Below, in pieces: positions 20,717-64,000 of a stretch of 64,000 nt of DNA (within the stretch, counting starts at the first letter, position 1; each line of letters starts with the position of its first letter). Both the position numbers and the translations under genes were made by a program. The notes below the pieces were generated by a model, which had not been told where the DNA came from, ran no database searches, and was given only the letters and a program-made list of their open reading frames with translations. Origin of the DNA: Solitalea longa (GTDB lineage Bacteria; Bacteroidota; Bacteroidia; Sphingobacteriales; Sphingobacteriaceae); assembly GCF_002920915.1 (NCBI RefSeq), contig NZ_PQVF01000001.1, positions 186,001 to 250,000 on the forward strand, written 5' to 3'.

Positions 20717-20790
20717 GGATCGGTAGTTCAGCTGGTTAGAATGCCGCCCTGTCACGGCGGAGGTCGCGGGTTCGAGTCCCGTCCGGTCCG
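20717..20790 (+). tRNA. tRNA-Asp (GTC), copy 1
   Basis: 74 nt. The acceptor arm GGATCGG pairs with CCGGTCC; the D-arm is around TTCAGCTGGTTAGAA; the anticodon arm CCGCC / GGCGG has loop CTGTCAC holding anticodon GTC; the T-arm is GCGGG TTCGAGT CCCGT. The 3' CCA is not encoded. Confidence 0.97.
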
Positions 20791-20854
20791 CAGCTAAAAT
20801 GGAAGCAGACGCTTCAAAACAGAAACAAATGGTTTCTGGTCAATTAAAAATCTT

Positions 20855-20928
20855 GGATCGGTAGTTCAGCTGGTTAGAATGCCGCCCTGTCACGGCGGAG
20901 GTCGCGGGTTCGAGTCCCGTCCGGTCCG
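20855..20928 (+). tRNA. tRNA-Asp (GTC), copy 2
   Basis: Identical in sequence to the first copy; same cloverleaf and GTC anticodon, no encoded CCA. Confidence 0.97.
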
Positions 20929-20993
20929 CAGCTAAAATGGAAACAGACGCTTCAAAGCAGAAACAAATGGTTTCTGCATCAATTAAAAATCTT

Positions 20994-21067
20994 GGATCGG
21001 TAGTTCAGCTGGTTAGAATGCCGCCCTGTCACGGCGGAGGTCGCGGGTTCGAGTCCCGTCCGGTCCG
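20994..21067 (+). tRNA. tRNA-Asp (GTC), copy 3
   Basis: Identical in sequence to the first copy. It is the last of the array and is followed at once by a terminator. Confidence 0.97.
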
Positions 21068-21070
21068 CAA

Positions 21071-59032: not shown

Positions 59033-59059
59033 AAAATCCATATTATTTTTTAAATAATT

Positions 59060-59088
59060 TTGAATTATTAATAAAAGTTATAAGTTTG
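59060..59088 (+). promoter_or_regulatory. Promoter of the thr operon
   Basis: TTG at 59060-59062 and TAAGTTTG at 59081-59088 are 18 bp apart, a good fit to the Bacteroidota consensus. Transcription should start near 59095, about 12 nt before the leader ATG. Confidence 0.75.
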
Positions 59089-59106
59089 CAATAGAGAATT
59101 AATAAT

Positions 59107-59214
59107 ATGAAAATCGCGCAGTCAACAATAAATACTACAGTAATTACCGCCCCGGTAGTTATTTGCGCTATTTCTATTATTACCACCACAATTATTACCC
59201 CTTGGGGGGTGTAA
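59107..59214 (+). CDS. Thr/Ile-rich leader peptide of the thr operon
   Basis: A 35-codon frame, ATG to TAA, that starts about 12 nt after the predicted transcription start and ends 102 bp before thrA. The peptide starts MKIAQSTINTTVITAPVV and has 8 Thr and 9 Ile residues (17 of 35). Codons 24-31 read IITTTIIT with no other residue. This is the design of an amino-acid-starvation leader peptide, as in enterobacterial thrL, where ribosome stalling at Thr/Ile codons controls the operon. Two hairpins overlap the frame. The position and composition are seen; regulation is inferred. Confidence 0.75.
   Translation: MKIAQSTINTTVITAPVVICAISIITTTIITPWGV
59141..59161 (+). other. Leader hairpin 1 (in the coding part of the leader)
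   Basis: TAATTACCG / CGGTAGTTA pairs over 9 bp (one G-T wobble) with a 3-nt CCC loop. It would be covered or freed by the translating ribosome. Confidence 0.6.
59196..59211 (+). other. Leader hairpin 2 (end of the leader)
   Basis: The TACCCC / GGGGTG stem with loop TTGG comes right after the Thr/Ile codon block. It lacks a U-tract, so it may be an antiterminator or pause hairpin rather than the terminator itself. Confidence 0.45.
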
Positions 59215-59316
59215 GTATATAATTCCGCGCCTTAGGGCAATTTTATCAATCAATCTTTTTTAACCTTTTTGAAGCCATAGAATTTAGTTTTTAGGCAAAC
59301 CCAGTTATTCGCATAT

Positions 59317-61755
59317 ATGAAAGTTTTAAAATTTGGTGGTTCATCAGTTGCGTCAGCAGAAAACATCGACAAGGTTGTAGCGATCGTTAAGGAGAAATCG
59401 GAAGAAGGGAAATTGGCCGTGTTTGTATCGGCATTAAGTGGTGTTACTGATAAATTAATTGCAGCCGGTAAAGCTGCCTCACAAGGAAACGAAGAGTATA
59501 AAGATATTTTAAACGAGATTGAGAACAGGCATTTGGCTGAAGTTCGCAAACTTGTTCCTATTGCCAACCAAAGTTCAGTATTAAGTCAGGTTAAAAAACT
59601 GCTTAATGATCTTGAAAACACTTGCGAAGGTGTATTCTTAATTGGTGAACTTTCTGCCAAAACCCTTGATCGTATTATGTCGAAAGGAGAGCTCCTTTCC
59701 TCTTTTATAATTTCAGAGAAGATGAAGGCAGAAGGCTTGAATGCAGTTTTGAAAGATTCAAGAGAGTTGATCAAAACCGATTCAAACTTTGGAAAAGCGG
59801 CTGTTGATTTTGAAACTACTAATTTACGCAGCTGGCAGTATTTTAATCAGGCAGCTGATGTTACCGTATTGCCCGGTTTTGTGGCATCAAACGAAAATGG
59901 TGAAACCACAACTATGGGTCGCGGAGGCTCTGATTATTCAGCTGCTATTGTTGCAGGTGCCATTAACGCCGAAGTGTTAGAAATATGGACCGATGTGAGT
60001 GGAATGATGACCGCCGATCCTCGAGTGGTAAGTCAGGCCTATCCAATTGAAAAGATATCATACGGTGAGGCATTTGAGCTTTCGCACTTTGGCGCTAAAG
60101 TGATCTATCCGCCGACAATCCAACCGGTTTTAGAGAAAAAAATACCTGTTTGGGTGAAGAATACCTTTGCACCTGATGATGCAGGTACTTTGATTCACGA
60201 AAATGGCAATGGGAATGACACTATTATAAAAGGTATTTCAAGCATTAATAAAATTGCCTTGCTTAGCCTCGAAGGCAGCGGAATGGTAGGTGTTCCAGGC
60301 TTTTCGAAACGTTTGTTTGAAGCATTAGCGCGTGAAGCGGTTAATGTGATCCTTATTACTCAAAGTTCTTCCGAGCACTCAATTTGTGTAGCTATAAATG
60401 AAGCTGATATTATCAAAGCTAAAACAGCTATTGACAGTGAGTTTGCTTTTGAGATCAGCGTGAAAAAGGTGGATCCGTTAATTATTGAGCGTGAACTTTC
60501 CATTGTGGCGCTTATTGGCGATAAAATGAAGAATCATGCCGGTGTAAGCGGAAAGATGTTTAGCGCTTTGGGACGTAACGGTATTAATATAAGGGCAATC
60601 GCTCAAGGTTCTTCAGAAAAAAATATCTCAACTGTAATTAATGAGAAGGACGTTAAAAAAGGCCTAAACGTTTTACATGAAGAGTTTTTTGAAAAACCGA
60701 TAAAACAGTTAAACCTTTTTATTACTGGTGCAGGAAATGTGGGTAGCAAACTGCTGGATCAACTGAAAAAACAACAACGTTTCCTAACTGAAGAACTCCG
60801 GTTAAATGTTAGGGTTGTAGGTTTGGCTAATTCTAAAAAAATGATCTTTAATGATGAAGGCATTTGTTTGGAAAACTGGAAAGAGCAATTGAGTAACGGA
60901 GAACCGATGTCACTTACTGCATTTGCTAAACATGCCAGAGTTAAAAATATGCGTAACAGCGTGTTTGTAGATAACTCGGCAAGTGAAGATGTTGCCCAGG
61001 TATATAAAGAGTATTTGAAAAGCAGTATCTCTGTAGTTACCTGTAATAAAATTGCCGCTGCTTCCGAATATCAGAATTACCGCAGCCTGAAACGAGCGGC
61101 TATGGATCACAATGTTAGATTTTTGTTTGAAACTAACGTGGGAGCAGGCTTGCCAATTATTGGAACCTTGAATGACATGGTTCGCAGTGGCGACCGGATA
61201 CGTAAAATTGAAGCTGTTTTGTCGGGTAGTTTGAACTTCATATTCAATAACTTTAAGACAGGTGTTTCATTCGAAGAAATTGTTCGTCAGGCACAAACTG
61301 AAGGATATACCGAACCTGATCCGCGTATTGATTTAACAGGTACTGATGTAAAACGCAAAATTCTGATCTTGATCCGTGAAAGTGGTGTGGCGATGGAAAT
61401 GGATGATATCACTTCTGATCCATTTATGCCTGCCGACTGTTTGGAGGGATCGGTAGATAATTTCTTCGAAAAACTGAAAGAGCATAAACAGGTATTCGAT
61501 GATTTATATACCGCCGCTTCAGCCCGTGGAGAGAAATTGAAGTTTGTGGCCACCTATGATAATGGTAAAGCTTCTGTTGGTTTAAGATCAGTAGCCCCTG
61601 ATCATCCGCTTTATAAGCTTGATGGTAAAGACAATATCGTACTATTTACTACTGACAGATACCCGGATCAGCCGTTAATTGTAAAAGGCGCAGGCGCAGG
61701 TGCTGACGTAACAGCTTCAGGTATTTTTGCTGATATTATTAAAACTGTTCTATAA
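59317..61755 (+). CDS. thrA: Bifunctional aspartokinase / homoserine dehydrogenase
   Basis: Catalyses the first and third steps of threonine synthesis from aspartate. The 812 residues hold an N-terminal aspartokinase (KFGGSSVASAENI, TTMGRGGSDYSAAIVAGAI), an ACT regulatory region in the middle (GMVGVPGFSKRLFEAL, GINIRAIAQGSSEKNIS), and a C-terminal homoserine dehydrogenase (FITGAGNVGSKLL, SGSLNFIFNNF, GYTEPDPRIDLTG). Length and order match ThrA/MetL. The upstream Thr/Ile leader favours threonine control. thrB follows after 9 bp. Confidence 0.96.
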   Translation: MKVLKFGGSSVASAENIDKVVAIVKEKSEEGKLAVFVSALSGVTDKLIAAGKAASQGNEEYKDILNEIENRHLAEVRKLVPIANQSSVLSQVKKLLNDLENTCEGVFLIGELSAKTLDRIMSKGELLSSFIISEKMKAEGLNAVLKDSRELIKTDSNFGKAAVDFETTNLRSWQYFNQAADVTVLPGFVASNENGETTTMGRGGSDYSAAIVAGAINAEVLEIWTDVSGMMTADPRVVSQAYPIEKISYGEAFELSHFGAKVIYPPTIQPVLEKKIPVWVKNTFAPDDAGTLIHENGNGNDTIIKGISSINKIALLSLEGSGMVGVPGFSKRLFEALAREAVNVILITQSSSEHSICVAINEADIIKAKTAIDSEFAFEISVKKVDPLIIERELSIVALIGDKMKNHAGVSGKMFSALGRNGINIRAIAQGSSEKNISTVINEKDVKKGLNVLHEEFFEKPIKQLNLFITGAGNVGSKLLDQLKKQQRFLTEELRLNVRVVGLANSKKMIFNDEGICLENWKEQLSNGEPMSLTAFAKHARVKNMRNSVFVDNSASEDVAQVYKEYLKSSISVVTCNKIAAASEYQNYRSLKRAAMDHNVRFLFETNVGAGLPIIGTLNDMVRSGDRIRKIEAVLSGSLNFIFNNFKTGVSFEEIVRQAQTEGYTEPDPRIDLTGTDVKRKILILIRESGVAMEMDDITSDPFMPADCLEGSVDNFFEKLKEHKQVFDDLYTAASARGEKLKFVATYDNGKASVGLRSVAPDHPLYKLDGKDNIVLFTTDRYPDQPLIVKGAGAGADVTASGIFADIIKTVL

Positions 61756-61764
61756 AACCCCTTC

Positions 61765-62694
61765 ATGAAAGAAATAAGAATTTTTGCACCCGGAACTGTT
61801 GCCAACGTGGCTTGCGGATTTGATGTGATGGGTTTTGCTTTGGATAATCCGGGAGATGAAATGGTGTTGAGAACAATACCTGAGAAAACGGTTCGTATTA
61901 CCAAAATAGATGGGTTTAATTTACCACTGGATGCTGCTAAAAATGTTGCGGGTGTGGCTTTGCTTTCGTTATTAAGCGAAGTAAAAGAGAAAGTAGGCTT
62001 TGAAGTTGAAATTTATAAAAAGATAAAACCCGGTAGCGGAATTGGTTCGAGTGCAGCGAGTTCTGCAGGTGCAGTTGTAGCAGCTAACAAACTCTTAGGA
62101 GAGCCGTTTTCAAAAACAGATTTGGCGCGTTTTGCGATGGAAGGTGAGCGACTTGCTTCGGGTACAGCACATGCCGACAATATAGCTCCGGCGATTTTCG
62201 GAGGCTTTACCTTGGTGCGTAGCTATCAACCTTTGGATATTATAAGTATTGATACGCCTGATGAACTGTATGCAACCGTAATTCACCCTCAAATTGAGGT
62301 AAAAACCTCTGATGCCCGCGAAATTTTAAAGCGTAATGTTTTGCTTAAGGACGCTATTCGTCAGTGGGGAAATGTTGGCGGTTTGGTTGCCGGACTAATG
62401 AAGTCAGATTACGACCTCATCAGCCGCTCATTAGAAGATGCTATTGTTGAACCGATACGCTCTATTTTAATTCCTGCGTTCCAGGAAGTGAAATTAAAGT
62501 CGAAGGAAGCAGGTGCGCTGGGTGGTGGAATTTCAGGATCTGGTCCTTCTATTTTTATGTTGAGCAGAGGTGAAGCAACTGCACAAAAGGTAAAAGCCAT
62601 TATGGCCGAAATTTACGATAAAGTTGGAATCGAATATGATATCCATTTATCGAAAGTGAATAAAGAAGGAGTGAAAATTATTAGTCAAAAGTAA
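61765..62694 (+). CDS. thrB: Homoserine kinase
   Basis: Phosphorylates homoserine in the fourth step. The 309-residue GHMP kinase shows FAPGTVANVACGFDVMGFAL, the ATP loop PGSGIGSSAASSAGAVVAA and GGGISGSGPSIFMLSRG near the end. Length is normal. It is 9 bp after thrA and 52 bp before thrC. Confidence 0.96.
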   Translation: MKEIRIFAPGTVANVACGFDVMGFALDNPGDEMVLRTIPEKTVRITKIDGFNLPLDAAKNVAGVALLSLLSEVKEKVGFEVEIYKKIKPGSGIGSSAASSAGAVVAANKLLGEPFSKTDLARFAMEGERLASGTAHADNIAPAIFGGFTLVRSYQPLDIISIDTPDELYATVIHPQIEVKTSDAREILKRNVLLKDAIRQWGNVGGLVAGLMKSDYDLISRSLEDAIVEPIRSILIPAFQEVKLKSKEAGALGGGISGSGPSIFMLSRGEATAQKVKAIMAEIYDKVGIEYDIHLSKVNKEGVKIISQK

Positions 62695-62746: not shown

Positions 62747-64000
62747 ATGAACTATTTCAGTTTAAATCATAATGCTCCAAAGGTGAAATTTAGCGAAGCC
62801 GTTGTAAAAGGGCTCGCTCCCGATAAAGGCTTGTACTTTCCTGAGTCGATTGCTCCTTTATCGAAAGAACTGATCGATAATATCGAGCGCTATTCAAAGG
62901 AAGAAATTGCTTTTCAGGCAATTAAGCAATTTGTTGGCGATGAAATCAATGAAGTTGAGTTAAAACGAATTGTAGCCGAAACTGTCAATTTTGATTTTCC
63001 TTTAGTCGAGGTTGAACCAAATGTATACAGTTTGGAGCTTTTTCATGGGCCAACACTTGCCTTTAAAGATGTAGGAGCACGTTTCATGGCTAGGTGTCTT
63101 GGTGCTTTTTCAAAGTTTGACGAAAAAAAGGTCACCGTATTGGTAGCTACTTCTGGTGATACCGGAGGTGCAGTTGCTGATGGCTTTTTAGGTGTGGATG
63201 GTGTTGAAGTTGTGATCCTTTATCCAAGTGGGAAGGTGAGCGATATCCAGGAAAAACAATTGACAACTTTGGGTAAAAACATTAAAGCTGTAGAGGTTAA
63301 AGGTACCTTTGATGATTGCCAAAGGATGGTTAAAACCGCATTTCTGGATGAGGATCTTAACAATACCTTAAATCTTACTTCGGCCAATTCAATTAATGTG
63401 GCTCGCTGGTTGCCACAAATGTTTTATTATTTCTTTGCTTATCAGCAGTTAAAAGATAAAACCAAAAATCTTATTATTTCGGTCCCAAGCGGCAATTTTG
63501 GGAATATTTGTGCGGGTATGATGGCCAAACGTTTAGGTTTGCCAATTGATCTTTTTGTGGCTTCTACAAATGCCAATAAAGTGGTTACCGAGTATTTAAA
63601 TTCAGGCAACTATGAGCCAAGACCATCTGTGCAAACAATCTCTAACGCCATGGACGTTGGCGAACCAAGTAATTTTATAAGAATTGAAGAGTTGCACCAA
63701 AAGAGCTTTAATACACTTAAAACAGCCTTGTTAAGCTTTAGTTATTCTGATGAACAAACCAGAATGGCGATGAAGGATGTGAAAAAACATACCGGCTACA
63801 TCCTCGATCCACACGGAGCTGTAGGTTATTTAGGTTTGAAAGATGCACTTAAAAATGTTGAAAATGCGCAAGGTGTCTTTTTAGAAACCGCTCATCCTTG
63901 TAAGTTTATTAATGTTGTTGAGGATACCTTAGGAGAAAAAGTGGATATACCGGCAAAATTAGAAGGTTTGCTTTCAAAAGAAAAGGTAGCCGTTTCACTT
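62747..64000 (+). CDS. thrC: Threonine synthase (cut by window end)
   Basis: PLP enzyme that turns O-phosphohomoserine into threonine. It starts at the ATG at 62747 and 418 codons are visible without a stop; the natural end should be within 10-20 codons. The PLP lysine is in GPTLAFKDVGARFM; SGDTGGAVADGFLG, SANSINVARWLPQ and VPSGNFGNICAG also match. It is the third gene of the thr operon. Confidence 0.95.
   Translation, partial: MNYFSLNHNAPKVKFSEAVVKGLAPDKGLYFPESIAPLSKELIDNIERYSKEEIAFQAIKQFVGDEINEVELKRIVAETVNFDFPLVEVEPNVYSLELFHGPTLAFKDVGARFMARCLGAFSKFDEKKVTVLVATSGDTGGAVADGFLGVDGVEVVILYPSGKVSDIQEKQLTTLGKNIKAVEVKGTFDDCQRMVKTAFLDEDLNNTLNLTSANSINVARWLPQMFYYFFAYQQLKDKTKNLIISVPSGNFGNICAGMMAKRLGLPIDLFVASTNANKVVTEYLNSGNYEPRPSVQTISNAMDVGEPSNFIRIEELHQKSFNTLKTALLSFSYSDEQTRMAMKDVKKHTGYILDPHGAVGYLGLKDALKNVENAQGVFLETAHPCKFINVVEDTLGEKVDIPAKLEGLLSKEKVAVSL

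Follow-up and report, generated by a model that had tools for sequence, protein, structure and literature searches.

A threonine/isoleucine-rich leader frame upstream of thrABC in Solitalea longa: a probable attenuator in which no intrinsic terminator is found

A short open reading frame rich in threonine and isoleucine codons precedes thrA in Solitalea longa, within a stretch of 64,000 nucleotides that was analysed as a whole (the window). Could this frame be the leader peptide gene of the threonine operon, and by what means could a ribosome on it influence the genes downstream? In known leader peptides, shortage of a charged tRNA stalls the ribosome on a codon block. The reading preferred here, to which a probability of about three quarters is given, is that the frame is a thr leader peptide gene, that sensing of tRNA-Thr and tRNA-Ile by stalling would raise thrABC expression, and that the leader represents a terminator-less arrangement, called the M layout below. 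The features concerned are collected in Table 1.

Table 1. Features of the putative thr leader and of its target operon (positions in the window)
Feature	Position	Strand	Description
Predicted promoter	59058-59088	+	TTTTG 59058-59062, 18-nt spacer, TAAGTTTG 59081-59088
Putative leader peptide ORF	59107-59214	+	35 codons; 8 Thr, 9 Ile; stop TAA 59212-59214
5′ hairpin P1	59116-59168	+	outer helix GCGCA 59116-59120/TGCGC 59164-59168; inner helix 59143-59148/59154-59159
Thr/Ile codon block	59176-59199	+	ATT ATT ACC ACC ACA ATT ATT ACC; proposed stall site
Hairpin P2	59197-59210	+	ACCCC/GGGGT, directly 5′ of the leader stop
AU-rich motif	59216-59226	+	TATATAATTCC, counterpart of Flavobacterium CATATAATCC, from alignment A3
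Weak palindrome	59229-59238	+	GCC-TTAG-GGC, 3 bp
thrA	59317-61755	+	bifunctional aspartate kinase / homoserine dehydrogenase I; proposed target
thrB	61765-62694	+	homoserine kinase (NCBIfam NF002288, 408.7 bits, cut-off 194)
thrC	62747-64000	+	threonine synthase (TIGR00260, 301.5 bits, cut-off 167.1); open frame, continues past the window end

Translation of the frame gives MKIAQSTINTTVITAPVVICAISIITTTIITPWGV, in which IITTTIIT stands without interruption, and 102 nt separate its end from the ATG of thrA at 59317; the length, the Thr and Ile counts, the residue block and the distance given in a preliminary description of this DNA are all confirmed in the sequence. The best ten-codon stretch in the 300 nt upstream of thrA contains nine Thr/Ile codons, and none of 100 dinucleotide shuffles reaches ten codons with nine Thr/Ile including at least three Thr. 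Among 1624 frames of at least ten codons in the window, this frame alone has at least eight Thr/Ile in ten codons, and seven are reached by two frames. The preliminary description had proposed conservation of the frame and of its Thr/Ile codons in relatives as a test, which the leader passes: the frame is kept in all four Solitalea genomes compared (starts ATG, ATG, TTG and GTG), and similar leaders occur in many other relatives. The residues of the Thr/Ile block are identical in the four genomes, the C-terminal end IITTTIITP(W/L)GV is common to them, and a 3-nt insertion in one leader (L006) leaves the frame intact and adds one Thr codon. The N-terminal half of the peptide differs among species. 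A run of codons for the operon product, as expected of an attenuator, is present in the Solitalea leader.

An attenuator is also expected to possess its own promoter directly 5′ of the leader frame, and one is predicted here. The Bacteroidota promoter that had been proposed before the frame has boxes and spacing (TTTTG-N18-TAAGTTTG) unchanged in 4/4 Solitalea genomes; the consensus behind the term Bacteroidota-type promoter is general knowledge. Of 48 M-layout loci, 36 carry the pattern TAnnTTTG at most 60 nt from the start of the scored frame; of 2000 pieces of 127 nt taken at random from the window, 190 contain it. The product of thrA exceeds the cut-off of NCBIfam NF006959 (1051.1 bits, cut-off 726), contains the Pfam domains AA_kinase, ACT and Homoserine_dh, and is 94% identical to ThrA of Solitalea agri MAHUQ-68.

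The two hairpins reported earlier as overlapping the frame are both recovered, the first (59143-59159) as the inner helix of P1 and the second (59197-59210) as P2. Covarying stems, which the preliminary description had suggested looking for in relatives, are represented by this inner helix: compensatory changes occur at three of its six pairs in the four Solitalea sequences, with one broken cell. The outer helix is invariant, and RNAalifold predicts both helices. With four sequences the covariation is modest, since the score is reached by 6/500 shuffles, the count of pairs changed on both sides by 43/500 and the count of pair types by 367/500. In Flavobacterium (37 aligned sequences) the inner helix of P1 is found in the same place and covaries; 97.1% of the P1 and P2 cells are paired, six pairs are changed on both sides, and 0/500 shuffles are as high on any of five measures. 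P1 holds 21 of the 22 both-side-changed cells of the two hairpins. An exploratory scan of all column pairs in Flavobacterium adds a further covarying helix (22 both-side-changed cells), which extends P1 towards the start codon. RNA structure around the codon run thus appears to be under selection, the P1 covariation being strong in Flavobacterium and modest in Solitalea.

The pairs of P2 are invariant within the four Solitalea genomes, and the folding model gives P2 a probability of 0.96-0.99 in all four when it is just completed. The fold energy of the whole leader is unremarkable (z -1.41; 18/200 shuffles equally low). An alternative 8-bp stem to P2 (59200-59207/59230-59237) was considered and rejected, as the model forms it only in the species of the window and not in the other three Solitalea. 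Conserved mutually exclusive RNA structures were found neither in a pairing scan of 54 sequences nor in the Solitalea folds; on average, the 5′ part pairs with the sequence beyond P2 no better than shuffled sequences do (mean z -0.72 to +0.20 in seven groups; Solitalea -0.64). Complementarity is most deviant in L062 (z -2.8), L073 (-2.3) and L086 (-2.1), and the averages of their groups do not stand out. A search for an intrinsic terminator between the leader frame and thrA finds none in the window, and none in any of the four Solitalea loci. The GCC/GGC palindrome mentioned in the preliminary description is present; it falls outside the terminator scan because its 3-bp stem is too short.

The region 3′ of P2 contains CATATAATCC in Flavobacterium, and TATATAATTCC takes its place in Solitalea at a shorter distance from P2. 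Alignment A3, from which this correspondence is taken, comprises 55 places (L034, L035, L045, L055, L070, L117 and exact duplicates omitted); alignment A2 comprises 31/36 places (omitted: L034, a copy of L005, and L045, L055, L070 and L117). Flavobacterium leaders show a third hairpin 3′ of CATATAATCC (alignment A4), whose 5′ arm is rich in U and whose 3′ arm is rich in G and A; its sequence varies, e.g., GCTTTC/GAGAGC in L171. As a common element it is suggestive, but it was not retained, as the region aligns poorly and there is no clear counterpart in Solitalea.

How widespread are such leaders? A search of the class gave 96 genomes with ThrA (partial matches in G107, G393 and G295 were left out of the loci), and 147 oriented loci were scored: four from Solitalea, 36 from the rest of its family, 29 from Flavobacterium and 78 from other families. 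In the same family, a leader had to contain at least 7 Thr/Ile per 10 codons, with at least three Thr, reached in at most 1/100 shuffles. By this rule, 32 of the 36 non-Solitalea members of the family possess a Thr/Ile leader before thrA; the exceptions are L008, L011, L012 and L206, the last failing because its Ile-rich frame has two Thr codons. With at least 6 in 10 codons and at most 3/100 shuffles, leaders are scored in 27/29 Flavobacterium and 28/78 other-family loci, the 50 remaining loci of other families failing the rule, many of them without a leader. Apart from their Thr/Ile richness, the peptides are dissimilar across many families. By these comparisons, Thr/Ile leaders often precede thrA in this class of Bacteroidota, and two layouts of them are seen.

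The T layout comprises most of the window's own family, with an intrinsic terminator in 29/36 loci and the P2 pattern in 0/36. Its usual leader contains GGAGGAAG, and the terminator reads CCTTCCTCC...GGAAGGC-TTTTT. In L203 both of these parts are changed jointly, to GGGGG and CCCCC, a change to be expected if they act as antiterminator and terminator. A T-like layout is also seen outside the family, upstream of thrA in L096 (G071, family f36), where the leader end carries GGAGG and CCTTCCTCC forms a hairpin with GAGGAAGG.

The M layout is recognized by the P2 pattern in 57 loci (4/4 Solitalea, 28/29 Flavobacterium and 25/78 others) and has the following order: P1 within the frame, the Thr run, and P2 on or just before the leader stop. 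A hairpin of at least 6 pairs with a T run, the definition used in the scan, follows P2 in 0/57 loci, shorter stems lying outside the scan. In the 50 P2 loci with a scored leader, the stop is inside P2 in 37 and at most 10 nt after it in 11, including Solitalea; the frame continues beyond P2 in L152 and L154. Without these two and the seven loci that lack a scored leader (L085, L086, L117, L119, L140, L209 and L211), 48 M-layout loci remain. In them the density of Thr codons peaks in the five codons before P2 (29, 39, 39, 32 and 37 of 48 at codons -5 to -1), and the distance from leader stop to thrA ranges from 66 to 194 nt, with spacers dissimilar between relatives. In L065, L126, L128, L130 and L133 this distance is 184-191 nt, versus about 105 nt in near relatives, and the extra sequence is alike in several of these Flavobacterium genomes. 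By eye, a hairpin of different sequence with the stop in its loop is seen in family f15 (e.g., L099, ACGGGGTAACCCGT) and in L060 of f49 (CCCGGTAACCGGG), which suggests that the hairpin is kept and not its sequence.

A model of P2 and the AU-rich motif (R1), built from alignment A3, was used for genome searches. In 31 Flavobacterium genomes all 20 matches at E <0.001 lie upstream of bifunctional thrA, a gene present in 23 of these genomes; these sequences are themselves part of the training set. In 395 genomes of the class, 21 matches were obtained in 20 genomes, 15 of them, including the ten best, upstream of bifunctional thrA. R1 is nearly specific for thrA. Other genes under the element were considered; of the six non-thrA matches in the class, one of which is in G128, the five others were inspected and look like chance; the weak matches inspected in Flavobacterium and Solitalea are within or beside unrelated genes. 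The four Solitalea genomes score 23.6 to 30.7 bits (E 0.34 to 0.005), the leader in the window reaching only 25.9 bits (E 0.08) even though its sequence is part of A3, and the strict filters of the class search miss Solitalea. Because of these weak scores, Solitalea is regarded as a divergent member.

Among known systems, the closest is the gamma-proteobacterial thr leader (RF00506; TIGR02077), in which a short Thr/Ile frame likewise stands behind a promoter and before thrABC, and which has the same target enzyme, bifunctional aspartate kinase-homoserine dehydrogenase I. The details of E. coli thrL used in this comparison are general knowledge. The preliminary description had recognized here the design of enterobacterial thrL. 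This has to be revised: the terminator design occurs in 29/36 family loci, but Solitalea has the other layout, with a hairpin at the end of the leader frame and, in 0/4 loci, a terminator hairpin with U tract as in RF00506 Thr_leader. This Rfam family has no match in the window at its gathering threshold and none in L001 and L007 up to E 10; NCBIfam TIGR02077 (thr_lead_pep) gives the Solitalea leader 9.6 bits (E 0.83), below its cut-off of 22.95. The T-layout relatives L028 and L016 score 40.2 and 38.2 bits with RF00506 (gathering 55). Elsewhere in the window (20717-21068), three tRNA-Asp (gtc) genes with equal Rfam scores lie in tandem.

The Bacteroid-trp RNA (RF01692) likewise serves a biosynthetic operon of this phylum as a leader element, but its codons are for Trp and its terminator is an ordinary hairpin with a T run. 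It has no match at the thrA leader, either in the window scan or in a search of the own genome up to E 1. The genome of the window possesses a trp leader before trpD (L221, G000:C31:354048-354177, minus strand), which scores 31.7 bits with RF01692, below the gathering threshold of 49. Its peptide MKHTVLNNIWWWRCINCGR contains WWW, its terminator consists of GGGTTGCC/GGCAACCC and a T run, and a similar trp leader (L222) is found in G003. With this leader, attenuation by leader peptides seems to be in use in the genome studied.

In Flavobacterium psychrophilum, the regions before amino-acid biosynthesis operons are reported to give strong clues to attenuation by leader peptides (PMC9723704), and the 5′ elements of pheA and hisG are among those occurring in other genera (PMC9723704). 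The main text of that study, by contrast, does not contain the words thrA or threonine (PMC9723704). A search of open-access titles and abstracts has, among the matches listed, no paper that deals with a thr leader of this phylum; subscription literature was mostly outside this search, so that an earlier description is possible. Neither thr_lead_pep of NCBIfam nor Thr_leader of Rfam recognises the Solitalea leader, which appears to be a variant of the known leader-peptide attenuators.

By analogy with known leader peptides, control could be realized as follows. The frame would be translated, and when charged tRNA-Thr or tRNA-Ile is short, the ribosome would stall on the Thr/Ile block, which would lead to more thrABC expression. 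A ribosome at the leader stop would cover and melt P2. The first Thr codon, ACC at 59182, precedes P2 by 15 nt, and a ribosome waiting on it would leave P2 free. In this scheme P2 would be both sensor and ON signal; RNA polymerase, Rho or a different factor would read it, presumably at the level of transcription and not via a competing intrinsic terminator. What speaks against this reading is that the scans gave neither a terminator after P2 nor a conserved competing pairing, that the covariation in Solitalea is modest, that R1 scores Solitalea weakly and that many loci of other families lack a leader. More tentatively, a second thr attenuator of the entire class may be proposed, in which a stop in or behind a hairpin reports the ribosome, Rho, pausing or some further factor reads the report, and the element travels with thrA; this extension is somewhat less probable than its opposite.

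Readout by Rho is one form of the preferred explanation and a plausible one, although we would not bet on it at even odds. In replete cells the ribosome would leave at the stop and Rho would load; a stalled ribosome, or P2, would keep Rho off. The result of the terminator scan in the 57 P2 loci is in favour of this, and the variable thrA spacer suits transcription control better than occlusion of the thrA start. On the other side, 59215-59316 contains 19 C and 14 G, and a fraction of 0.228 of the 102-nt pieces of the window is as high; such an excess of C over G is not unusual and lends Rho no positive support.

Classical attenuation has the sensing step in common with the preferred explanation, and is rather unlikely as its readout. 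In this case P2, or the palindrome at 59229-59238 with the T-rich stretch, would terminate transcription, P2 being blocked directly whenever a ribosome stalls on the Thr codons. The terminators of the sister T layout speak for such a mechanism, as do U-rich stretches such as TTTAATTTT 3′ of P2 in family f12. The first codon of P2 is, in addition, an in-frame Thr codon in 48/48 loci; the pattern itself demands ACC, and the frame is the informative part of this count. However, P2 has only about 5 pairs and is followed in Solitalea by GTAAGTATATAATTCC, which is not a U tract, and the scan of the 57 loci, confined as it was to stems of at least 6 pairs, gives no terminator after P2.

The preliminary description had left the mechanism open between transcription attenuation, Rho and occlusion of the thrA start, and rightly so, except that the last of these is now less likely. 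For translational control, the leader structure would have to hide the thrA start unless a ribosome stalls; the 102-nt spacer permits long-range pairing, and single-sequence folds pair parts of it. The variation of the distance between stop and thrA in the 48 M-layout loci, with spacers unlike between relatives, makes such occlusion improbable, and in the consensus fold of the four Solitalea sequences the thrA start codon is entirely unpaired. That the Thr/Ile richness of the frame is accidental, or that the frame encodes a small protein functional in its own right, for which the variable N-terminal half could be cited, is very improbable in view of the shuffle and window-wide controls, the in-frame insertion in L006 and the Thr/Ile frames before thrA in many families whose peptides are otherwise unlike.

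The preferred reading, a leader of the M layout, places Solitalea apart from most of its family, and the history of ThrA is consistent with this. A ThrA tree of 71 rows, which does not include the Flavobacterium set, unites the 19 enzymes of the T layout in one clade (SH-aLRT 100). The Solitalea enzyme, unlike this clade of its own family, is found among lineages with M-layout members, where the neighbouring forks are weak. A group of Solitalea and T-layout ThrA is rejected (p-AU 0.0022) in a test on 30 rows picked from the 71-row tree, the tested group having been named after the first tree. Since the Solitalea enzyme stands apart from the T enzymes of the family, the thr operon and its leader may have moved as a unit. 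The simplest account of the Solitalea placement would be a horizontal replacement of both; possibly, the M layout is ancestral instead and was replaced elsewhere in the family.

The Solitalea layout follows the thrA gene and not the family. If the preferred reading of the M layout as a thr attenuator is true, Bacteroidota would have a threonine attenuation that dispenses with an intrinsic terminator. With this layout it can be tested how ribosome position on a leader is sensed where such a terminator is missing.
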